64,000 nucleotides of DNA from assembly GCF_900110115.1 (NCBI RefSeq), contig NZ_FOCM01000003.1, positions 62,001 to 126,000 on the forward strand. The letters run 5' to 3'. The stretch comes from Palleronia pelagia (GTDB lineage: Bacteria; Pseudomonadota; Alphaproteobacteria; Rhodobacterales; Rhodobacteraceae). The notes beneath the pieces are model-generated. The model saw only the letters and a program-made list of their open reading frames with translations, was not told where the DNA came from and ran no database searches. Positions 7,800 through 24,653 of the stretch are shown here, piece after piece (the first letter of the stretch is position 1; every line of letters begins with the position of its first letter). The position numbers and the translations under genes are program-made.

Positions 7800-8153
7800 A
7801 TGCCGATCGTTCTCATTGTCGAGAATGTTCCCGTCGTTTCAGAAGATATCGCCGAAACCGTTCGAACCCAACTGCCCGACGCCGAGACCATGACCGCCAC
7901 GTCACTGAAGGATGCGGAGGATATCGTCGTGACCGGAACCGATATCCGGCTCTGCATCGTGTCGGGATCTGCCGCGGCGCCGCGGCTCGAGGGTCTGGCC
8001 CGGGCCCTGGCGGAACGCCAGGTGCCCACCGTGGTGATGACCAATCACCAGGTCGTCGTCGACATGTTCGACGAGCGGGCCGAGATCCTGGGCAAGCCGT
8101 TCTCGACCCAGATGCTCAGCGACGCGCTGCGCAACCTCAATCTTTCCGACTGA
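7800..8153 (+). CDS. Receiver-like protein lacking the phospho-acceptor Asp
   Basis: A 117-aa single-domain protein that looks like a CheY-type receiver: it starts MPIVLIVENVPVVSEDIAET, has VVMTNH at the conserved Thr position (Thr81) and LGKPFS at the conserved Lys position (Lys99). The strand that should end in the phosphorylated Asp reads RLCIVSGSA, placing Ser55 there. One acidic residue of the N-terminal pair is also replaced (VEN). It is probably phosphorylation-independent. I use the ATG at 7800; a TTG two codons upstream is less likely. Its last 17 nt overlap the converging holin-like gene. Confidence 0.7.
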   Translation: MPIVLIVENVPVVSEDIAETVRTQLPDAETMTATSLKDAEDIVVTGTDIRLCIVSGSAAAPRLEGLARALAERQVPTVVMTNHQVVVDMFDERAEILGKPFSTQMLSDALRNLNLSD

Positions 8154-8529
8154 TCGCGCGCGCGACCGACAGTCCAAGCATGAAGGCCTGTGCGACATTC
8201 GCCGCCGTCAGGGCGCGGGCGCTCGTCTCGTCGGTGGCGGCGTCGGTGGATTTCGTGGGATCCGCCATCTGGCGCGCCTGCTCGCGCGGGATCGCGCGCG
8301 GCGGGATCTTGGAATAGGCCAGGATCAGAAGACCGATCACGAAGAAGACGCCGCCCACGATGAGCGACGCGATCAGGCCACCGTAAAGATCGATCAGGTA
8401 GATCATGCCGGCGCTGGCGAAAAAGCCGACACCGACCAACGCGAAAAAGCCGCCCAGCGTACCGTACACGGCACGCCGGGCGACGCGCTTGCCCATCAAC
8501 TGGGCGCGCAGAAGAATCGGGGCGAACAC
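8137..8529 (-). CDS. Phage holin-like/DUF1469-type small membrane protein
   Basis: This 130-aa protein has two hydrophobic helices (GTLGGFFALVGVGFFASAGM and GLIASLIVGGVFFVIGLLIL) and a charged C-terminal tail. The layout matches the putative holin X/YqjE-like proteins usually found beside YqjD/DUF883 genes in proteobacteria. The start is GTG at 8529, 3 nt after the DUF883 stop, so the pair is probably an operon. The E. coli yqjCDE-like context suggests a stress-phase membrane role. No phage genes are nearby, so the holin name is only a family label. Confidence 0.72.
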   Translation of the reverse strand: MFAPILLRAQLMGKRVARRAVYGTLGGFFALVGVGFFASAGMIYLIDLYGGLIASLIVGGVFFVIGLLILAYSKIPPRAIPREQARQMADPTKSTDAATDETSARALTAANVAQAFMLGLSVARAISRKD

Positions 8530-8532
8530 CGA

Positions 8533-8817
8533 TCAGCGGCGGGTCAGGAAGCCGACGATCAGGCCCACCAGGGCGGCGATGCCAAGGGCCGTGGCCGGGT
8601 TTTCGCGCACGTATTCCTCGACCTCGTCGACCTTGTGCTCGGCCTCGCTGCGCATGGCGTTGGCCCGGCGGCGCGCTTCGTCGCTGTAGGCGCGGCCCTT
8701 GGCGACACCCATGTCCTTGATGGTATCCGTCAGGCGGGCGATGTCGCCCTTCAAAAGCTCGACCTGGCGCGACAGCTCCTCGGTCGACGGCTCCGGCTTG
8801 TTGGTGTTCTCAACCAT
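8533..8817 (-). CDS. DUF883 family protein (YqjD/ElaB-like)
   Basis: A 94-aa protein with a long amphipathic helical region (LSRQVELLKGDIARLTDTIK and on) and one C-terminal membrane segment ending TALGIAALVGLIVGFLTRR. This is the YqjD/ElaB architecture; in E. coli those tail-anchored proteins bind ribosomes in stationary phase. Start is ATG at 8817. Its leader holds an 11-bp inverted repeat that includes the ribosome binding site (separate entry). A GGAAC motif lies about 60 nt upstream, but the -10 part is a poor EcfG match. Confidence 0.85.
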   Translation of the reverse strand: MVENTNKPEPSTEELSRQVELLKGDIARLTDTIKDMGVAKGRAYSDEARRRANAMRSEAEHKVDEVEEYVRENPATALGIAALVGLIVGFLTRR

Positions 8818-9126: not shown

Positions 9127-9156
9127 GTTCCGGAACCGCGACGGTCTGTGCGGGTT
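9127..9156 (+). promoter_or_regulatory. Back-to-back GGAAC motifs, probable EcfG promoter(s)
   Basis: The 10-nt palindrome GTTCCGGAAC at 9127-9136 contains a GGAAC -35 motif for each strand. On the plus strand GGAAC (9132-9136) is followed after 17 nt by GTT (9154-9156), close to the EcfG consensus, with the PRC-barrel-like ATG 28 nt further on. On the minus strand GGAAC (9131-9127) is followed after 16 nt by GATT, a poor -10. The plus-strand promoter is plausible; the minus one is doubtful. Confidence 0.5.
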
Positions 9157-9184: not shown

Positions 9185-9784
9185 ATGACCATCACCGCAC
9201 GCACTCTGATGGCCGCCAAGGCCAAGACCGAGGATGGGGATTTCCCGGTGCGCGAGCTGTTCTTCTCCTCGCGTGACTGGACCTTGCGCCACGTGCTGGT
9301 CGATCTCGGCGGATGGCTGAGCCGGGAAGAGGTGCTTGTCACCATCCGGCGGTTCGAGAGGCCAGACGACGCCGGCTGGCCCCTTGCCATGTCACGGGCC
9401 GAGCTCGACGACGCCCCCATGCTCGACCCGGCGTCCGAGCCTGCGCCCGACCTGCCGCCCGTGGTGATCGGGCCGTTCGGGAACACCTTCTCGCCCCTTC
9501 TCGCGGCAACGGTCGGCATGGAGGAGTCCATGCCTGAGACGTCCGGAGACGATGCCCCCTCGGACGTCATGCGCGATGGCAGCGGCCGCGTGTTCCGGTT
9601 GGAACGGATGTCCGAGTGGATCGGGCGCGAGACGTTCGGCCCCGAGGGCCCGCTGGGCGAGATCACCGACTTTCGCATGACAGATGATTTTCGCATGACC
9701 GACGCCCTGCTGAAGGGCGACGGCATCGTGTCCCTGTCGCGGTTCCGGCGGCTGGCCGACCAGGGCCACGCCGTTTTCGGCTAG
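9185..9784 (+). CDS. PRC-barrel-like domain protein
   Basis: A 199-aa protein with two PRC-barrel-like halves: residues about 12-60 (REVLV... preceded by DGDFPVRELFFSSRDWTLRH and VLVDLGGWLS) and about 140-190 (VFRLERMSEWIGRETFGPEG, PLGEITDFRM). Start is ATG at 9185 after AAAGGA. No signal peptide is seen. A perfect in-frame repeat of the hexapeptide DFRMTD sits in the second half (separate entry). Such proteins are often stress-linked in alphaproteobacteria, in line with the GGAAC promoter upstream. The domain call rests on the overall pattern, not on a strict motif. Confidence 0.65.
   Translation: MTITARTLMAAKAKTEDGDFPVRELFFSSRDWTLRHVLVDLGGWLSREEVLVTIRRFERPDDAGWPLAMSRAELDDAPMLDPASEPAPDLPPVVIGPFGNTFSPLLAATVGMEESMPETSGDDAPSDVMRDGSGRVFRLERMSEWIGRETFGPEGPLGEITDFRMTDDFRMTDALLKGDGIVSLSRFRRLADQGHAVFG
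9668..9703 (+). repeat. Tandem 18-bp repeat encoding DFRMTD twice
   Basis: Bases 9668-9685 and 9686-9703 are adjacent, in-frame copies that each encode DFRMTD. They differ at three bases, all at synonymous third positions (GAC/GAT, ACA/ACC, GAT/GAC). The protein repeat is therefore exact while the DNA has diverged. Confidence 0.9.
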
Positions 9785-10497
9785 ACCGGGGCCGCGTCCC
9801 GGACCGCGCTGATCTGGTCGCGCGCCTCGTAGCGGGCGGCCGCCGCGTTGACCAACGCCCGGAAGATCGCCCGCTGGCGGTGGGCGTAGAACAGGTGCTC
9901 GGGGTGCCACTGCACGCCCAGCGCGAAGGGCGGTTCGACCCGCTCCACCGCCTGGATCATGCCGCCTTCGTCGTGCGCGGCGACCTGCAAACCGTCCCCG
10001 AGGACCGACACCGCCTGGCTGTGCAGCGCGTTCACCCGCATGGGCGCCGTGCCCGAATGGCGTGACAGAAGCGTGTCGGGCCGAACGTCGATGTGCTTCT
10101 TCGGCAGGATGGTCCAGTGCCGTTCGCTGGCCGTGTAAGTGCCGTAGGCGTCTTGATCGAGCAGCCCGCCCAGCGCGACGTTGATCATCTGCGCACCACG
10201 GCAGATGCCCAGGACGGGCTTGCCGGCCGCCATGGCCTCGCCCACCAGGCGCTGCTCCAGCGCGTCCCGCTCGGGGTCGAGCCGGGCGGACGAGATGATC
10301 TTTCCGCCGAACAGGTCGGGCGAGATGTCGTCACCGCCGCCGATGATGACGCCATCCACCGCGTCGATGTCGTCGGGCCGGTTGACCCCCCAACGCACCG
10401 CACGCCCGCCCGCCAGCCAGACGTTCAGCGCCACCAGCGGGAAGATCCGCCAGCCCGAGCGTTGCGAGGTGGTGACGCCGATCAGGGGTTTCCTCAT
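9781..10497 (-). CDS. Class-I glutamine amidotransferase / gamma-glutamyl hydrolase (PuuD-like)
   Basis: This 238-aa protein has the complete class-I amidotransferase triad: nucleophile Cys99 in GICRGAQMINVALGG and His198/Glu200 in QWHPE. DGVIIGGGDDISPDLF is typical of the peptidase C26/PuuD branch, which hydrolyses gamma-glutamyl amides. Its ATG overlaps the amidoligase stop by four bases (ATGA), so the two are coupled. In such pairs the amidoligase forms an amide bond and the C26 enzyme is thought to release or trim gamma-glutamyl products; this is inference from family pairings. Its 3' end overlaps the PRC-barrel-like gene by 4 nt. Confidence 0.88.
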   Translation of the reverse strand: MRKPLIGVTTSQRSGWRIFPLVALNVWLAGGRAVRWGVNRPDDIDAVDGVIIGGGDDISPDLFGGKIISSARLDPERDALEQRLVGEAMAAGKPVLGICRGAQMINVALGGLLDQDAYGTYTASERHWTILPKKHIDVRPDTLLSRHSGTAPMRVNALHSQAVSVLGDGLQVAAHDEGGMIQAVERVEPPFALGVQWHPEHLFYAHRQRAIFRALVNAAAARYEARDQISAVRDAAPV

Positions 10498-11465
10498 GGG
10501 TGCATCCCGGCGTCGTTCAGGATCTCGGCCGCGCGGTCCCGCCAGCCCCCCGGCAGGTGCAGCACGCCGGAACGGTGGTCCCGCCACGCGGCGCACAGCC
10601 GGTCGAGCAGGTCCGCGTCCGCGCCGATCCGCTCGATGGCGCACCAGCGGTTCCATTCCAGCGTGACCGACCAGGCGGGATCGTCGATCCGGCAATCGGG
10701 CAGTCGATAATGCCAGGCCGGCCGGGCGGACTTGTGGTCCATCTGCGGAACGGCGGCGACGACGCGGTCGGGCGCGTGCTGCTTCAGGATCGGCAGCAGG
10801 TCCAGCGCGTGGTTCCGGCTGGCCGCGTGTTCCAGGTAGGCGTCGGTCAGGGCGTCCATGTCCCAGTCATCGGCCTCGGGCGCGCAGATCGCATCTGTCA
10901 GCGCCGCTGGCATGGGGTCGACGAAGGGCAGGATGCGACGGGCCGGATCGATATCCATGCTGTCGCGCAGGCATTCCTCGACCAGGCAGAAGGCGCGCAG
11001 GGTCGGCAGGATCGCCGGGACCGACATCGCGGGCAGCGCCACGTTCAGATGCACCCCGAAGCCCAACGCGAACCCGTCCTGCGTGCCCAGCGCGCCGGCG
11101 GCGACCAGGGACTCGTTCACCGCCTCGATACGGGCCAGCTCACGCGGTAGCACCGGCTCGGTCACGTATTCCACCGGGATGACCGCGCGGCCCAGGTCGA
11201 GGCCCATCTGCGCGATCTTCGACGAGGCGTGATCGCGCAGCTTGGTGTCGAGCAGGATTTCCACCGTGCCCAGGTCCGATCCCTCGACGGTCCATTCGTA
11301 GTCGCCGGTCTGCCGCTCGGTCCCGCCAAGGCCATTGGCCAGGATATGGGTGACGGCCCGCTCGTCCAGGCCCCCGAGTTCGACCTCGACGCCGACGCGG
11401 CGTGGCGCGCCGTCGTCGGTCTCCGGGCGCGGCAGGTCCTGGGCTTCGGGATGATTCTCGGTCAT
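10494..11465 (-). CDS. Putative amidoligase (COOH-NH2 ligase, GCS/GS-like fold)
   Basis: This 323-aa protein matches the putative amidoligase family, distant relatives of glutamine synthetase and gamma-glutamylcysteine synthetase that use ATP to join a carboxylate and an amine. Visible motifs are VGVEVELGGL (residues about 20-29, acidic metal ligands), EYVTEPVL, GFGVHLNVAL, and TLEWNRWCAIER near the end. No substrate can be read from sequence. ATG at 11465 with GGCAGG ahead; the 38-nt gap to phospholipase D holds a 6-bp hairpin (11478-11495) without a T-run. The 3' end overlaps the glutamine amidotransferase gene. Confidence 0.8.
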   Translation of the reverse strand: MTENHPEAQDLPRPETDDGAPRRVGVEVELGGLDERAVTHILANGLGGTERQTGDYEWTVEGSDLGTVEILLDTKLRDHASSKIAQMGLDLGRAVIPVEYVTEPVLPRELARIEAVNESLVAAGALGTQDGFALGFGVHLNVALPAMSVPAILPTLRAFCLVEECLRDSMDIDPARRILPFVDPMPAALTDAICAPEADDWDMDALTDAYLEHAASRNHALDLLPILKQHAPDRVVAAVPQMDHKSARPAWHYRLPDCRIDDPAWSVTLEWNRWCAIERIGADADLLDRLCAAWRDHRSGVLHLPGGWRDRAAEILNDAGMHP

Positions 11466-11503
11466 GGCCTGCCAATCCCGGGCGGCAACGCCCGGTTCCC
11501 CGC

Positions 11504-13048
11504 TCAGACGATTTCGCCCGGAACGCCAGGCAGGGGCATGCCGAACTTGCGGGCCGGACGCACGTCGTAGGGCAGAAGAAAGCTTTCGCGGTTCTCGGGC
11601 TGGCGGAACCGGTCTTCCTCGGCCCAGCCGCGGACCTGTTCGATGGCCGAACGCTGCGGATCGAAGGCCCGCTGCCCGGCCCAGTGGGTCAGGGCGCGAG
11701 ACAGAACGTTGCGCGCGAAATCGCCATCCTTGGTCAGGACGCCGGCCTCGGTGTCCCAGTGCAGCGACCGACCGTTCAGGTTCGCCGACGAGACCAGCGT
11801 GCTGCGATCGTCGAAGACACACAGCTTGGCATGGACGTAGATCAGCGGGGCGCCGTCGATCACGTCGCGACCCGGCGGGGGACCGGGCAGTTCGCTGCGC
11901 GGCTGGGCGGGCGAGGCGAAATAGGCCCGGTCGCCGAAGGCCTTGGACACCTGTCTCACGCAGCGCGCCTGGAGATACTCGCCGAAGCGCGCATCGACCT
12001 TGGTGCGCCGGTGAAAGGCGACATCCTCGGGCGCGGCCGGCAAGACCATGAGCAGTTTGAGATCCGGATGCTGCCCCGCAAGGTCGGACAGGTGCCGGGC
12101 CAGCGCGCGGTCGCGGAAGAACTGCGTCTCGAAATAAATCAGATCCCGCGAGGCGGCGGCTTCCTCGAAGATCGTGTCGTTGATCTCGGTCAGCAGCTGG
12201 CTGGGCCCGAACGCCGTCAGCGGCCGGTGACGCCGCTTGGACAAGGTCCGCACGAAGCCGCCCTCCCCCGGCGTCGGATCGGCGTCGCCGCGCGTCACGT
12301 CGGCCATCGCTTCCAGATGCGCCTCGGCGGCCGCGGCGGCAGGCCCTTCGACGATCATTTGCACGTCGTGCCAGGTCTGTTCGCCCGGGCCGCGGTGCTG
12401 CCGCGTGTCGTAGCGGCGCCCGTTCAGGTCCAGCCCGCCGATATAAAGGACGCGCCCGTCCATGACCGCCAGCTTCTGGTGATGCGACACCGGGTGCAGC
12501 GGGAACGGCCCGCCGCTGTGTTGTTCGACCAGGTGCTTGGCGCCCACCCGCAGCCAACGATGCGCCCGCCGCAGGTGGCGGAAGCGGGTCAGGCGCGCGG
12601 GCGCTTCCAGCCCGTTCAGCGTCTCGCGCAGTTCGGCCAGTTCGCGCGCGACACGCGGCCAGAGCGCAAAGCCGGTCAGCCATCCCACGCGCGCGGGATG
12701 CATGGCCGCGCGCGCCCGCAGCGGCGCGGCGTCGGGGCCGGCAAGCTCGGATATCGACGCCATCTGGCGCATGGAAGACCAGCAAACCGCGTGCATCTCG
12801 GGCGAGACGATCGGGTCGAAATCCGAAAGCGTCAGGTCGATGCGCACGCCGCGCCGAAGGGTGTGGATCAGCAGGTCGAACCAGTCCTCCCCGATCTCGC
12901 GCGCGTTTTCGGAACGCAGCTTGGTCTGCGCGTCGAACACGCGGAAGCCCATGACGATCCGGTCCTGCGCGGCCAGCACGGCCTCTTCGAAGGCGGGAAA
13001 GGCTTCCTCTGCCGTCAGCAGCAGCCGGGGGGCGGCCGTGTCTGTCAT
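11504..13048 (-). CDS. Phospholipase D family protein, two HKD motifs
   Basis: A 514-aa protein with both catalytic HxKx4D motifs: HHQKLAVMDGRVLYIGG (about residues 189-205) and VHAKLCVFDDRSTLVSSANL near residue 400. Both have the downstream Gly/Ser-Asn pattern of active PLDs. No signal peptide or membrane anchor is evident, so it would act in the cytoplasm or at the inner leaflet. It could be a phospholipase or transphosphatidylase; nuclease activity is less likely given two motifs in one long chain. Its ATG overlaps the histidine kinase stop (ATGA), tying it to the stress operon. Confidence 0.88.
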   Translation of the reverse strand: MTDTAAPRLLLTAEEAFPAFEEAVLAAQDRIVMGFRVFDAQTKLRSENAREIGEDWFDLLIHTLRRGVRIDLTLSDFDPIVSPEMHAVCWSSMRQMASISELAGPDAAPLRARAAMHPARVGWLTGFALWPRVARELAELRETLNGLEAPARLTRFRHLRRAHRWLRVGAKHLVEQHSGGPFPLHPVSHHQKLAVMDGRVLYIGGLDLNGRRYDTRQHRGPGEQTWHDVQMIVEGPAAAAAEAHLEAMADVTRGDADPTPGEGGFVRTLSKRRHRPLTAFGPSQLLTEINDTIFEEAAASRDLIYFETQFFRDRALARHLSDLAGQHPDLKLLMVLPAAPEDVAFHRRTKVDARFGEYLQARCVRQVSKAFGDRAYFASPAQPRSELPGPPPGRDVIDGAPLIYVHAKLCVFDDRSTLVSSANLNGRSLHWDTEAGVLTKDGDFARNVLSRALTHWAGQRAFDPQRSAIEQVRGWAEEDRFRQPENRESFLLPYDVRPARKFGMPLPGVPGEIV

Positions 13049-14766
13049 AGCTCGTCCGTGAATTCGCTGGTGTCGAAGACAAGGGTGACGGTATGGCGTC
13101 CTTCCGACTCGCGCACCGTCATCCTGCCGTCCAGCTGCATGACGAACGCCTGCATGAGCTGCGACCCCAGGCCCGAGGCCCCAAGCCCCGCATCGCCGGC
13201 GAATCTCGGCCCCAGCGAATTTTCGCAGCAGAGCGTCACCGTGCCTTCGGACTCGGTCAGCCCCAGCTTGATCCAGGGCCGTTCATCCTTTTGCGATCCC
13301 ACGTATTTGAACGCGTTGGTCAGCGTTTCCGTGACCAGCAATGACAGCGGCACCGCCTGGTCCGGATAGAGCGCCACGGACTGGATGTCGGTCTGCAGGT
13401 CGATCGCCCCGTCGCTGACATCCGCGTTGGCGGTGATCTGGTCCACGAGATCGGCGATCAGTTGTGCGCTGTCCACCCGGCTGAGCACGTTGGCGCGATA
13501 GAGGTTCCGGTGGATCGTCGCCAGGCCCAGCACGCGGTCCTGCAGGCGGCGGATCAGGCTGCGCGTCTCCTCGGACGTGGTCTTGCGCAACTGCATGTTC
13601 ATCATCGACGAGATCAGTTGCAGGTTGTTCTTCACGCGGTGGTGGACCTCTTTCAGCAGCACGTCCTTCTCGTGCAGGCTGTTCTCGAGATCGGCCTCAT
13701 CGCGCAGGATGCGTTCGGTCAACTGCTCGAACGCCTCGACCACCTCGCGCAGTTCGCTGGGCAGGTCGCCGCCGTCGCGGAACGGCAGGACGCGGCGCGT
13801 CGTGGTGAAGGCGCGGATGCGCAGCCGCAGCTGGCGGATGTGGCGCACCACCAGCCGGTGCACGGCGAAATAGGCCACCCCGATGCTGACCAGCCACATG
13901 AGCAGCGGGAACAGGATCGCGCTGGCCGCTGTCAGCCCCCCCGTCGAAACGGCCGAGGACCGCCAGATCGACATCGCGAAGATCTCGCCGGGGATAATTG
14001 GGACGGTGGTGTAGATGTAGGACCTGCCGTCCGGCCCCTCCTCGACGATCTGTCGGGCGCCACCGAAGATCGCGCCTCGGAAACGGTCGAAATCGGGCAA
14101 CAGGGGCAGAATGTCGGTCATGCTTGCAGCGCTGGCGAGGCTCAGGACCTCGCCCGTCCGCGTCATGGTGAGGGTGGCCAGGGGCGACTCGATCCCGGCC
14201 TCTTCGCTTCCGATATTCAGCGGTGCCTGCGGGATCGAGACGCCGAAGAACCCGATCGATCGCCCATCGATACGAACGGGCTCGACGACCGAGACGACGG
14301 GCATGCCCGAGACTGCGCCCTGGGACGAAGCGAAGAAGCCGGCATCTTCCGAGATCCAACGACGGTAGACCGGGTTGTCGGACAGGTCCGTGCCGATACC
14401 GGAGGACGCGCACCGCACCAGGCCATCGTTGTCCACGTAGCCCGCGAACGACACGGACGGGAACCGCCTGGTGAACCGCACCATGTTGGCCGAGCACGCG
14501 TCCTGGTCCTCGAGCGACGTCGCGACGATCTCGGCAGCGATGCGGGCCGCGCCGCGCATCTGCACCAGAGCTTCGCGCTGGTCGGTCACCGCGTTGACCG
14601 TGTGCCCGATCAACGCCGCGCGCGCGACCTCGTCGGCATTGTCGATCACGCGGTAGGTCTGCACCATGGCGATGAGGCCAATGGGCAAAAGGGCGAGGCC
14701 CAGAAGGGCCACGAGCCGGACATCAAGACGGTCCAGACCGTCAATTCCCCGCCCGCCAGGTAGCAT
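13045..14766 (-). CDS. HisKA_2-type sensor histidine kinase of the general stress response (PhyK-like)
   Basis: The 573-aa protein has two membrane helices (about 17-37 and 283-303) bracketing a 245-residue periplasmic Cache/CHASE-like sensor, then a HAMP-like linker and the kinase. The phospho-His lies in LLKEVHHRVKNNLQLISSMM (His376 probable), typical of HWE/HisKA_2 kinases that feed PhyR. The ATPase part shows LLVTETLTNAFKYV and GLGASGLGSQLM. It starts 3 nt after the ecfG stop and ends overlapping phospholipase D. Family knowledge and position make PhyR the likely partner; the signal is unknown. Confidence 0.88.
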   Translation of the reverse strand: MLPGGRGIDGLDRLDVRLVALLGLALLPIGLIAMVQTYRVIDNADEVARAALIGHTVNAVTDQREALVQMRGAARIAAEIVATSLEDQDACSANMVRFTRRFPSVSFAGYVDNDGLVRCASSGIGTDLSDNPVYRRWISEDAGFFASSQGAVSGMPVVSVVEPVRIDGRSIGFFGVSIPQAPLNIGSEEAGIESPLATLTMTRTGEVLSLASAASMTDILPLLPDFDRFRGAIFGGARQIVEEGPDGRSYIYTTVPIIPGEIFAMSIWRSSAVSTGGLTAASAILFPLLMWLVSIGVAYFAVHRLVVRHIRQLRLRIRAFTTTRRVLPFRDGGDLPSELREVVEAFEQLTERILRDEADLENSLHEKDVLLKEVHHRVKNNLQLISSMMNMQLRKTTSEETRSLIRRLQDRVLGLATIHRNLYRANVLSRVDSAQLIADLVDQITANADVSDGAIDLQTDIQSVALYPDQAVPLSLLVTETLTNAFKYVGSQKDERPWIKLGLTESEGTVTLCCENSLGPRFAGDAGLGASGLGSQLMQAFVMQLDGRMTVRESEGRHTVTLVFDTSEFTDEL

Positions 14767-14769
14767 GAC

Positions 14770-15330
14770 TTAGCCCTGCCGCGTATGCGATGTGGTGATG
14801 ACGGAATCGTTGGTTGAATCCTGGATCACCGGATCTTCGTCCGGGTCCAGCTCCATCAGTTCGGCAAGCCGGCGGCGGCCGCGATTGGCGCGGCTCTTGA
14901 TCGTGCCGACGGCGACGCCGCACATCTCGGCGGCCTCTTCGTAGGCAAACCCGGACGCGCCCACCAGCATCAGCGCCTCGCGCTGTTCGTCGGGCAGTTT
15001 TTCGAACGCCTTGCGGAAATCGTTCATGGCGAGACGCCCGTCATGGTGCGGCTTCTCGGACATGCCCGCGGCCATCACGCCGTCGACATCCGCGACCTCG
15101 CGTTTGGCCTTGCGGCGGATCGAGTAGAAGGCGTTACGCTGAATCGTGAACAACCACGCCCGCAGGTTCGTGCCGGGCTGGAACTTGTCCATGTTCTTCC
15201 ACGCCTTCTCGATGGTGTCCTGCACCAGGTCGTCGGCGGCGGCGGAATTTCGGGTAAGGGACATCGCGAAGGCACGCAGGGCACCAAGGTGTTCGATCAG
15301 CTCGTCCCGGGGGTCTTGGATATCATTCAT
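14770..15330 (-). CDS. ecfG: General stress response sigma factor EcfG
   Basis: This 186-aa ECF sigma factor has region 2 (DDLVQDTIEKAWKNMDKF, RAWLFTIQRNAFYS) and region 4 (KLPDEQREALMLVGASGFAY, VAVGTIKSRANRGRRRLAEL). It groups with EcfG by context: nepR directly upstream and overlapping by 8 nt, phyR divergent, and an HWE kinase downstream. The start is ATG at 15330; longer frames run into nepR. It would direct RNA polymerase to GGAAC-N16/17-CGTT promoters, of which several are seen in this window. Confidence 0.93.
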   Translation of the reverse strand: MNDIQDPRDELIEHLGALRAFAMSLTRNSAAADDLVQDTIEKAWKNMDKFQPGTNLRAWLFTIQRNAFYSIRRKAKREVADVDGVMAAGMSEKPHHDGRLAMNDFRKAFEKLPDEQREALMLVGASGFAYEEAAEMCGVAVGTIKSRANRGRRRLAELMELDPDEDPVIQDSTNDSVITTSHTRQG

Positions 15331-15493
15331 CCGGTTCGACCTGCCCACCGGAACCGGCTTCCTGTTCCTTGAGCTGCTGAAGCAGTCGCTTGAATCGATC
15401 AGGCACATCTTCGCCGGCATCCTGGCGATACACACGCCTGAGGTTCTCATCGATCTGGCGCATGACTCTATCGGGCTTCTTTTCTGACGACAT
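15323..15493 (-). CDS. nepR: Anti-sigma factor NepR
   Basis: A 56-aa frame starting with ATG at 15493 reads MSSEKKPDRVMRQIDENLRR, then VYRQDAGEDVPDRFKRLLQQ and a short tail. The IDENLRRVY and VPDRFKRLLQQL segments are the two conserved NepR helices that hold EcfG and are captured by phosphorylated PhyR. It overlaps the ecfG start by 8 nt, the usual coupled arrangement. The Shine-Dalgarno is weak. It is too short to be kept by many gene finders. Confidence 0.93.
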   Translation of the reverse strand: MSSEKKPDRVMRQIDENLRRVYRQDAGEDVPDRFKRLLQQLKEQEAGSGGQVEPDE

Positions 15494-15537: not shown

Positions 15538-15568
15538 GGAACAAACGCCGCTTCCCGCGTGTTGTTCC
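15538..15568. promoter_or_regulatory. Overlapping divergent EcfG promoters (phyR and nepR-ecfG)
   Basis: Minus strand: GGAAC at 15568-15564, 16-nt spacer, CGTT at 15547-15544, an exact consensus; the predicted start lies about 40 nt before nepR. Plus strand: GGAAC at 15538-15542, 18-nt spacer, GTT at 15561-15563, about 28 nt before phyR. The two promoters are interleaved in 31 bp, each -10 lying next to the other's -35. This gives autoregulation of both arms of the stress module. Confidence 0.85.
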
Positions 15569-15590: not shown

Positions 15591-16415
15591 ATGACTACCA
15601 ACAACCCCACGCTGGACCTGTCCGATACCATCGCTCAGGACCTGCCTTACTTGCGTCGCTACGCGCGCGCTCTGACAGGGTCGCAAAGGACCGGGGACAA
15701 TTACGCCGCCGCTACCCTAGAGGCGATTCTGCAAGAGCCTTCTATCTTCCAACGCGATGCCGAGCCAAAGGTTGCACTTTTCAATGCATTCCATCGGATC
15801 TGGTCGACCGCGGGCGCGCCCACGGCGGACACAGAGGATCCGCGCACCCGCATGGAAAGCGCCGCGCTGGACCACATGGCCGGGCTGACGTCGAACACGC
15901 GCGAGGCGCTTTTGCTGTCCACCATCGAGGGGTTCAGTTTCGAGAACGTGGGCAAAATTATGGGCATCGACGCGTCGGAAGCCTCCGGCCTCGTCGATAT
16001 CGCAATCGCCGAGATGGAACGCTCGATGGCGGGCAAGGTCATGATCATCGAGGACGAGGCGATCATCGCCATGGATATCCATTCGATCGTTTCCGAAATG
16101 GGTCACCAGATCACTGGTATCGCCCGGACCCGGTCCTCGGCCGTGGACCTGGGCGCCAAGGACAAGCCGGACCTGATCCTGGCCGACATCCAGCTGGCCG
16201 ATAATTCCAGCGGCATCGATGCGGTAAACGATATCCTTGGCCAATTCGGGGATATCCCGGTGATCTTCATCACCGCCTTCCCCGAACGTCTGCTGACCGG
16301 CGACAAGCCCGAACCGGCCTTCATGATCGCCAAGCCCTATTCCGAGGAGCAGGTCCGCTCAGCCGTGAGCCAGGCCATGTTCTTCGCCAGCACCGAGTCG
16401 CTGAAGGGAACCTGA
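15591..16415 (+). CDS. phyR: General stress response regulator PhyR
   Basis: The 274-aa protein has an N-terminal sigma-factor-like domain (residues about 10-145; LTSNTREALLLSTIEGFSFE is the sigma-4 mimic) and a C-terminal receiver (about 148-265). Receiver residues are intact: acidic pocket in MIIEDEAI, phospho-Asp199 in DLILADIQL, Thr228 in FITAFPE and Lys248 in MIAKPYS. On phosphorylation the sigma-like domain binds NepR and frees EcfG. Start is ATG at 15591 after AGGGA. It is followed by a strong terminator. Confidence 0.96.
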   Translation: MTTNNPTLDLSDTIAQDLPYLRRYARALTGSQRTGDNYAAATLEAILQEPSIFQRDAEPKVALFNAFHRIWSTAGAPTADTEDPRTRMESAALDHMAGLTSNTREALLLSTIEGFSFENVGKIMGIDASEASGLVDIAIAEMERSMAGKVMIIEDEAIIAMDIHSIVSEMGHQITGIARTRSSAVDLGAKDKPDLILADIQLADNSSGIDAVNDILGQFGDIPVIFITAFPERLLTGDKPEPAFMIAKPYSEEQVRSAVSQAMFFASTESLKGT

Positions 16416-16502: not shown

Positions 16503-16667
16503 TTAGCGGTCGTTCGCCACCTTCATCGCGAACAGGATCAACGACGTCAGCAGGCACACGAAAAAAGCGATCTGCGCCAGGCCCGCTACCGCGCTTGCCA
16601 GGCCACCAAAGCCCAGCAATCCCGTGGCAAGTGCAGCCATGAAGAAGATCAGTGCAAGATAAAGCAT
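16503..16667 (-). CDS. DUF1328 small membrane protein (YtjA-like), 54 aa
   Basis: The frame from ATG at 16667 reads MLYLALIFFMAALATGLLGF, then GGLASAVAGLAQIAFFVCLL and ends KVANDR. Two hydrophobic helices separated by a Gly-rich turn are the DUF1328 pattern. A consensus EcfG promoter sits about 45 nt upstream, so it is probably a stress-induced membrane protein; the molecular role is unknown. It is too short for many gene finders. Confidence 0.88.
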   Translation of the reverse strand: MLYLALIFFMAALATGLLGFGGLASAVAGLAQIAFFVCLLTSLILFAMKVANDR

Positions 16668-16711
16668 TCAGGCGCTCCGAAGTGGCGTCTATCAGGTTAT
16701 GTCATTTGACA

Positions 16712-16736
16712 AACGACCGCGGCGAGGACCGGTTCC
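16712..16736 (-). promoter_or_regulatory. EcfG promoter of the DUF1328 gene
   Basis: On the minus strand GGAAC (16736-16732) is followed after exactly 16 nt by CGTT (16715-16712). This equals the EcfG consensus and is oriented toward the DUF1328 ATG at 16667, leaving a leader of about 35-40 nt. Confidence 0.8.
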
Positions 16737-24336: not shown

Positions 24337-24362
24337 GGAACCCGCACTGCGCAGGGCCCGTT
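24337..24362 (+). promoter_or_regulatory. EcfG promoter of the Rho-N-like gene
   Basis: GGAAC at 24337-24341 is followed after 17 nt by CGTT at 24359-24362. The site points to the ATG at 24390, leaving a leader of about 20 nt. Motif and spacing match the exact sites at the phyR locus. Confidence 0.75.
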
Positions 24363-24389
24363 CGGCAAGGAAATAGCGCGGAGCCCGAG

Positions 24390-24653
24390 ATGACCAAGGA
24401 TCATGGACCGTCCGTAAAGGACGACGAAACCTACAAATCCCTGCGCGAAGACGGTGCCTCGAAGGAAAAGGCCGCCCGGATCGCCAATGCCCAGGCCAAC
24501 GACGACATGGACCCGGGCGAGAAGGGCGGCGAAACGCCCCCCTACGAAGAGTGGACCAAGGACGACCTGTACGACCGGGCGCAGGAGATCGGCGTCGACG
24601 GACGGTCGGACATGACCAAGGACGAGCTGATCGAGGCGCTGCGCAAACACTAG
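24390..24653 (+). CDS. Small Rho N-terminal-like (SAP-type) protein
   Basis: An 87-aa charged protein. The N-terminal half (TYKSLREDGASKEKAARIAN) resembles short stress-type proteins, and the C-terminal 40 residues (WTKDDLYDRAQEIGVDGRSD, MTKDELIEALRKH) form a Rho N-terminal/SAP-like helix-extended-helix that may bind nucleic acid. ATG at 24390 with GGAG ahead. The EcfG promoter upstream marks it as a likely stress gene. No catalytic residues are seen. Confidence 0.8.
   Translation: MTKDHGPSVKDDETYKSLREDGASKEKAARIANAQANDDMDPGEKGGETPPYEEWTKDDLYDRAQEIGVDGRSDMTKDELIEALRKH

Follow-up and report, generated by a model that had tools for sequence, protein, structure and literature searches.

A general stress response operon of Palleronia pelagia and its two putatively independent enzyme modules, phospholipase D and amidoligase–C26

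Why would a stress sigma-factor operon carry three enzyme genes behind its sensor kinase, and do these enzymes work together? The question is raised by a 64,000-nucleotide (nt) stretch of the Palleronia pelagia genome (contig NZ_FOCM01000003.1, positions 62,001 to 126,000; hereafter the window), in which six minus-strand genes at 9781-15493 follow one another in the order nepR–ecfG–kinase–PLD–amidoligase–C26. Herein, PLD stands for a phospholipase D superfamily protein and C26 for a hydrolase of the Peptidase C26 type. We propose, with a probability of roughly 70%, that the locus combines the core switch of the general stress response (GSR) with two recurrent and mutually independent effector modules, namely PLD and the amidoligase together with C26. 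This proposal draws on comparative sequence analysis of relatives.

Profile searches returned a family match for every one of the six genes (Table 1). The genes, strands, and joins that the initial annotation had read from the sequence were all borne out: an 8-nt overlap between nepR (15493-15323) and ecfG (from 15330), a 3-nt gap before the kinase (14769-14767), ATGA overlaps at the kinase/PLD (13048-13045) and amidoligase/C26 (10497-10494) joins, and a 38-nt gap between the PLD stop at 11504 and the amidoligase ATG at 11465. The order goes beyond chance because it recurs in relatives. NepR, EcfG, and PhyR are all encoded at this one locus, phyR divergently, in agreement with the earlier assignment to the NepR-EcfG-PhyR stress switch. 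The name EcfG rests on the gene's position between nepR and the kinase and on its PhyR_sigma2 match, the NF009198 model being named simply "RNA polymerase sigma factor". The kinase is PhyK-like along its whole length yet stays under the PhyK equivalog cut-off (NF051872, 196 of 750 bits). A strict motif of the EcfG type starts 75 nt ahead of nepR, as in a GSR switch; the consensus used (GGAAC-N16-17-C/GGTT) is the one given in the portion of PMC12148442 that we consulted. From established GSR biology, stress would activate the kinase, phosphorylated PhyR would take NepR, and the freed EcfG would then transcribe its own operon.

Table 1. Genes and promoter motifs at the stress locus (window coordinates; E, expect value; ECF, extracytoplasmic function; aa, amino acids)
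Feature	Position	Strand	Basis
nepR, anti-sigma factor, 56 aa	15323..15493	-	PF18557, E 7e-14
ecfG, general-stress ECF sigma factor	14770..15330	-	PF04542, PF08281, PF22029; NF009198, 310 bits (cut-off 270)
HisKA_2-type sensor kinase	13045..14766	-	PF07568, E 2.8e-21
PLD (514 aa), member of the HKD phospholipase D superfamily	11504..13048	-	PF00614, PF13091
Amidoligase, Amidoligase_2 carboxylate-amine ligase homologue	10494..11465	-	PF12224, E 1.7e-43
C26, Peptidase C26 / gamma-glutamyl hydrolase-type enzyme	9781..10497	-	PF07722, E 2.9e-45
phyR, anti-anti-sigma response regulator, divergent	15591..16415	+	NF006623, 358.8 bits (cut-off 240)
Promoter motif of the EcfG type, strict form GGAAC-N16-CGTT, ahead of nepR	15544..15568	-	Motif scan
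One-mismatch EcfG-type motif GGAAC-N16-GGAT, PLD/amidoligase gap	11475..11499	-	Scored in the near-identical Palleronia salina locus, read in the window
Gene convergent with C26	9185..9784	+	EcfG-type motif GGAAC-N16-GGTT at 9132-9156

The first module, PLD, carries both HxKxxxxD motifs that define the HKD superfamily (H190/K192/D197 and H406/K408/D413 in the alignment), and no signal peptide was seen by eye. As a cardiolipin synthase it missed the cut-offs by far (TIGR04265, 29 of 290 bits; NF008427, 39 of 281 bits). How firmly it is tied to the switch was assessed on 149 genomes drawn from the family (Rhodobacteraceae), of which 65 have a NepR match (E 0.01) and 41 a PLD match (E 1e-40). NepR is present in 38 of the 41 PLD genomes (P=2e-14 over the draw) and absent in three. 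In 26 of the 41, PLD follows downstream of nepR, on its strand and at most 5 kb away; four more have the two genes no further than 10 kb apart but arranged differently, and in eight nepR is found elsewhere or on another contig. Among the 36 PLD loci fetched, 22 hold ecfG, kinase, and PLD in order on one strand. Since PLD is mostly linked to nepR and co-occurs with NepR, the PLD extension is, judged from these genomes, a normal form for the stress operon to take in the sampled family. The initial annotation had expected to fail if its enzyme genes proved mostly unlinked to ecfG in relatives; for PLD they are linked in those 26 of 41. An EcfG motif of PLD's own was considered and set aside as weak (8/41 within 260 nt, background 4.5%; 3/10 where the locus lacks ecfG; 0/12 in the named loci introduced below). 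At the inner membrane, the enzyme may cleave or transfer phospholipid head groups, leading to phosphatidic acid or to cardiolipin-type remodelling.

The second module was followed through four sets. The family draw holds PF12224 in 23 of its 149 genomes, and the surroundings of all 23 were fetched (7.7-20 kb); one (L045, genome G004) gave no alignment with the window amidoligase and was dropped from locus counts, leaving 22, and kept in co-occurrence counts. A class draw of 385 genomes (26 with PF12224) gave 24 loci besides those of G000 and G075, and a phylum draw of 398 genomes (24 with PF12224) gave 17 new loci. The named set comprises the nearest 80 of at least 570 confirmed amidoligase relatives and is thus biased to near ones; its closest member is Palleronia salina DSM 26892 (L161; amidoligase 98% identical), which matches 11 of 11 window query proteins at 93-100% identity. 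The source genome itself holds one PF12224 gene, according to a profile search.

C26 sits beside the amidoligase in 20/22 family, 21/24 class, 15/17 phylum, and 79/80 named loci (the exception, L224, ends at the amidoligase), confirming the earlier statement that an amidoligase and a C26-type hydrolase recur as a pair. The tie to ecfG is of another order. It is present in the locus in 9/22 family and 35/80 named cases (12 with PLD, 23 without), with none nearby in 13/22 and 45/80; no class locus has it (0/24), and the single case among the phylum loci (1/17) comes from the window's own family, leaving 0/16 outside it. The pair is therefore by no means confined to the family, and in these draws its link to ecfG appears only there. 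In the family draw, NepR is found in 20/23 amidoligase genomes vs 45/126 others (P=5e-6). A broken C26 remnant (L145:2657-2971, genome G063), convergent with the PLD of an ecfG operon, was also seen; G063 is not among the PF12224-positive genomes, and it looks as if the cassette was once present there and then decayed.

Where linkage exists, its geometry varies. The family's linked amidoligases mostly stand behind the kinase without PLD, and in 22 of the 23 ecfG-linked, PLD-less named loci the gene starts 1-133 nt past the expected kinase end (479 nt in the remaining one). The full six-gene order occurs in two of the 22 family loci, both of the genus Palleronia, and in seven of the 80 named ones (L161-L164, L166-L168). 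Further arrangements include intervening DNA (L175, L214, L217) and the opposite strand (L228 and L236 in the named set; G002, G025, and G047 in the family). On the amidoligase tree, the label "no ecfG nearby" needs seven changes (bootstrap 6-7). We picture PLD as a standing member of the operon and the amidoligase–C26 pair as a family-specific recruit, which sits after the kinase or PLD in some relatives and after an EcfG-type motif of its own in others.

Could the downstream genes have ended up after the stress operon by accident and play no part in stress? The pair adjoins unrelated genes in other bacteria, and the cassette therefore moves around the genome. Pfam scans of 20 chosen neighbours matched unrelated functions in 15 (TauE, sortase, peroxidase, M48 twice, CitMHS, GreA, VTT, LrgB, PPK2, EamA, a mechanosensitive channel, DUF3095, a Cys/Met pyridoxal phosphate enzyme, and LexA) and nothing in five. 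Against such a bystander origin stand the several geometries described above, the NepR co-occurrence, and the EcfG motifs found where the genes are unlinked (see below), and we consider it very improbable.

A fixed third partner of the pair is not claimed either, as the neighbour comparisons gave no constant family. An all-against-all comparison of 47 loci returned, besides the pair, only GSR genes and clusters resembling shadow frames of the opposite strand, chiefly the generic family of ABC-transporter-like ATPases (11 loci); a second one (up to 5.5 kb, 50 partly different loci) returned, besides the pair and two shadow-frame-like clusters, no family in more than five loci. A CitMHS-type transporter cluster covers three loci (L110, L120, L266). 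As a separate observation, a family from another class of the same phylum has a mechanosensitive-channel-like gene next to the pair in five of its six loci (L267-L270, L275; Pfam check in L267).

Promoter motifs extend the case beyond linkage. The strict EcfG motif, scored within 200 nt upstream of the amidoligase, is present in 10/22 family loci (5/9 with ecfG, 5/13 without) and in 20/80 named loci (10/35 and 10/45, respectively), with backgrounds of 2.0% and 1.4% per scanned region; the two sets share some genomes and their counts are not pooled. Negative controls are nearly empty (C26 0/79, kinase 1/35), while nepR as the positive control gives 23/30 and 21/34, and phyR 24/33 and 24/35. Of the 20 motifs in named loci, 18 sit 24-54 nt ahead of the expected amidoligase start. 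Allowing up to one mismatch within 120 nt, the named loci score 17/45 when unlinked and 15/35 when linked, with nepR at 33/34 and controls at 1/79 (C26), 2/35 (kinase), and about 4% (shuffles). The initial annotation loses ground insofar as so many amidoligase loci lack ecfG nearby, and keeps it insofar as part of them carry their own EcfG-type motif. The site that corresponds to the window's one-mismatch motif is strict in P. marisminoris (L166), P. rufa (L167), P. caenipelagi (L165), and an uncultured relative (L164). In a scan for sigma-70 promoters and terminators, the minus strand showed no promoter-like site; the single terminator-like site falls within PLD (12461-12448), fewer than in shuffles (mean 3.6).

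Critically speaking, several observations weigh against stress control of the pair. EcfG control does not extend to every relative, since 28 of the 45 unlinked ones show no motif even when one mismatch is allowed; the strict motif occurs in just 1/6 Rhodovulum and 0/9 named Roseovarius loci. It also turns up in 2/23 class-draw loci, at 94 and 199 nt upstream and against a very low background. Binomial P values for the motifs are too small, since the relatives are not independent, and the strongly supported branches of the amidoligase tree force only one change of linkage. In the window itself, the motif in front of the amidoligase departs from the strict form by one mismatch; the gene would therefore rely on read-through from nepR, and a GC hairpin spans the 38-nt gap in front of it. 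This hairpin was rejected as a terminator: it has no T tract and folds no better than shuffles (z -0.69).

Taken together, EcfG very probably controls both PLD and the amidoligase–C26 pair. The stress control proposed in the initial annotation is thus well supported by linkage and by EcfG-type motifs, as far as sequence can speak to it, and does not extend to all relatives. Because many relatives keep these genes beside the switch or after a motif resembling its promoter, their chemistry probably belongs to stress survival.

Do PLD and the pair, then, form one pathway? Here, PLD would release an amine (a head group such as ethanolamine or choline), the amidoligase would conjugate it, and C26 would trim the product; the initial annotation had offered the first of these steps as an idea. 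Palleronia and its close kin do have all three genes in a single operon, and in the seven named loci mentioned above PLD immediately precedes the amidoligase; over the 149 family genomes PLD and amidoligase co-occur (15/23 vs 26/126, P=4e-5). Moreover, when 50 of the 80 named genomes were examined for PLD (E 1e-20), 19 of the 23 with an ecfG-linked amidoligase and no local PLD had one elsewhere, vs 10 of 25 with an unlinked amidoligase (P=0.003). On the other hand, within the 65 NepR genomes co-occurrence is no longer significant (14/20 vs 24/45, P=0.28), and the idea of a PLD-derived amine finds no support there. At the same threshold, four of the 23 linked genomes have no PLD anywhere (Palleronia caenipelagi L165, Mesobaculum L169, Anianabacter L171, Tranquillimonas L187), one of them thus a Palleronia, and 26 of 41 PLD genomes have no amidoligase. 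Choline, moreover, has no free amine. PLD feeding the amidoligase was therefore rejected as the leading explanation, and a single pathway appears unlikely. The simplest reading is that PLD and amidoligase–C26 would both be part of the stress response, neither needing the other; they are probably parallel outputs and not steps of one pathway.

What the pair itself might do can be approached from both partners. The amidoligase clears the Amidoligase_2 profile easily (149.7 bits, cut-off 22), and its conserved residues include G24, E26, E28, D72, E98, N140, R175, R216, R247, R253, and E277 (numbered as in the alignment, one less than from the ATG). Its structure model is confident (predicted local distance difference test 92, predicted template modelling score 0.90). 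Searched against the PDB, the model returned YbdK first, Dop third, and glutamine synthetase 15th, all of them weak matches. Conserved residues and model fit a carboxylate-amine ligase, putatively of the YbdK/glutamine synthetase type. Speaking against this assignment, the best fold match reaches an E of 9.4e-3 and a template modelling score of 0.32, and ranks 2 and 4-14 are taken by unrelated proteins such as mitoribosome chains and HMG-CoA reductases. By sequence, the amidoligase profile found no credible match among solved structures.

C26, for its part, keeps Cys99, His198, and Glu200, which we take to be the catalytic triad, in 34 of 34 aligned sequences, and together with its PF07722 match this places it in Peptidase C26. 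The initial annotation had called it a glutamine amidotransferase; it does match PF00117 (55 bits), and PF07722 fits better (155 bits). Its nearest solved chains are Lin1909, 7d4r (presumably SpuA), and PuuD (6vtv), and it is likely a PuuD-like gamma-glutamyl hydrolase, even if it falls short of the PuuD equivalog (NF008471, 73.2 of 266 bits).

Given these ligase-type residues and model, and the three chains nearest to C26, the pair might carry out a reversible gamma-glutamylation of an amine, an idea we put forward tentatively and with the odds somewhat against it. The amidoligase would spend ATP on linking an amine to a carboxylate, for which the gamma-carboxyl of glutamate is the likeliest candidate, and C26 would hydrolyse gamma-glutamyl amides, either reversing the modification or clearing a by-product. 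The "new amide-linked compound" of the initial annotation may exist; just as well, such a reversible modification could account for a ligase encoded next to a gamma-glutamyl hydrolase.

The main rival to gamma-glutamylation is an amidotransferase pair, in which C26 acts as a glutaminase and passes ammonia to the amidoligase, which in turn amidates a carboxylate to give a carboxamide such as an osmolyte or an amide of the cell envelope. Near-obligate pairing with the amidoligase first, the 4-nt overlap in 16 of 20 family pairs (by start picks), and the PF00117 match all suit it, and MurT/GatD offers an analogy. However, C26 resembles gamma-glutamyl hydrolases that stand alone (PF07722, 7d4r, PuuD) more than it does glutamine amidotransferase subunits. 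Also, two of the 22 family amidoligases lack an adjoining C26: the best C26 match in one genome (G037) is only 30% identical, and that in the other (G083, 48%) lies on another contig and has an internal stop. We regard ammonia transfer as only a little less probable than gamma-glutamylation.

Several other genes of the window may belong to the same regulon. The convergent gene next to C26 is a possible regulon member, as its strict motif ends 28 nt ahead of its ATG; it has no Pfam match of its own, one relative has a PRC-barrel domain, and homologues were found near ecfG-PLD loci in several relatives. Past phyR, a DUF1328-like protein of 54 aa (16503-16736, minus strand; just below the Pfam cut-off) is preceded by a strict EcfG-type motif at 16736-16712. 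The same holds for a small charged protein at 24337-24653 (plus strand, ATG 24390), likewise a candidate member. Adjoining the locus at 8137-8817 (minus strand) are small membrane proteins of the DUF883 type and of a holin-like type (the latter below cut-off), which are kept in most of the Palleronia-type loci fetched.

Amidoligase_2 proteins are widespread among bacteria, and to our knowledge no member has an assigned substrate. Iyer et al. (2009) reportedly catalogued the amidoligase families, their putative fold, and their pairing with amidotransferase-like partners. Our literature search, with most subscription papers outside it, found nothing linking these genes or describing the operon, and showed no stress-sigma control of amidoligases among the papers it listed. 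The portions of PMC12096838 and PMC8976061 consulted do not treat the amidoligase–C26 pair, and the GSR papers PMC5830050 and PMC12148442 do not use the word phospholipase. The probable GSR timing, together with the known distribution over strains and promoters, gives a testable handle on the pair. With odds not far short of even, the GSR of Roseobacter-group bacteria may command the making and unmaking of an undescribed amide-linked small molecule through a recruited Amidoligase_2/C26 pair, beside a membrane-remodelling PLD. The locus also offers a hint as to the part that this group's GSR, itself little studied, plays at the membrane, which agrees with the membrane-stress role of the PhyR cascade described for the R. 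sphaeroides phyR locus in the part of PMC5830050 consulted.

Compared with known systems, the locus follows the alphaproteobacterial GSR layout in its nepR-ecfG operon, divergent phyR, downstream kinase, and GGAAC-N16-CGTT motif; in R. sphaeroides, too, sigma factor and kinase come in this order (PMC5830050, same part). It differs in having three enzyme genes after the kinase in the same operon. PLD resembles the eukaryotic-type HKD phospholipases D, PLD1 and PLD2, which are its nearest solved structures by profile comparison and share the two HKD motifs. Those enzymes have regulatory domains for which the window protein, at its length, has no room. Finally, amidoligase and C26 recall the gamma-glutamyl amine metabolism of PuuA/PuuD and SpuA in joining a carboxylate-amine ligase to a hydrolase of the PuuD/SpuA kind, whereas the window ligase is of the Amidoligase_2 and not the GlnA (PuuA) type, C26 stays under the PuuD cut-off given above, and the operon carries no oxidase or dehydrogenase gene.

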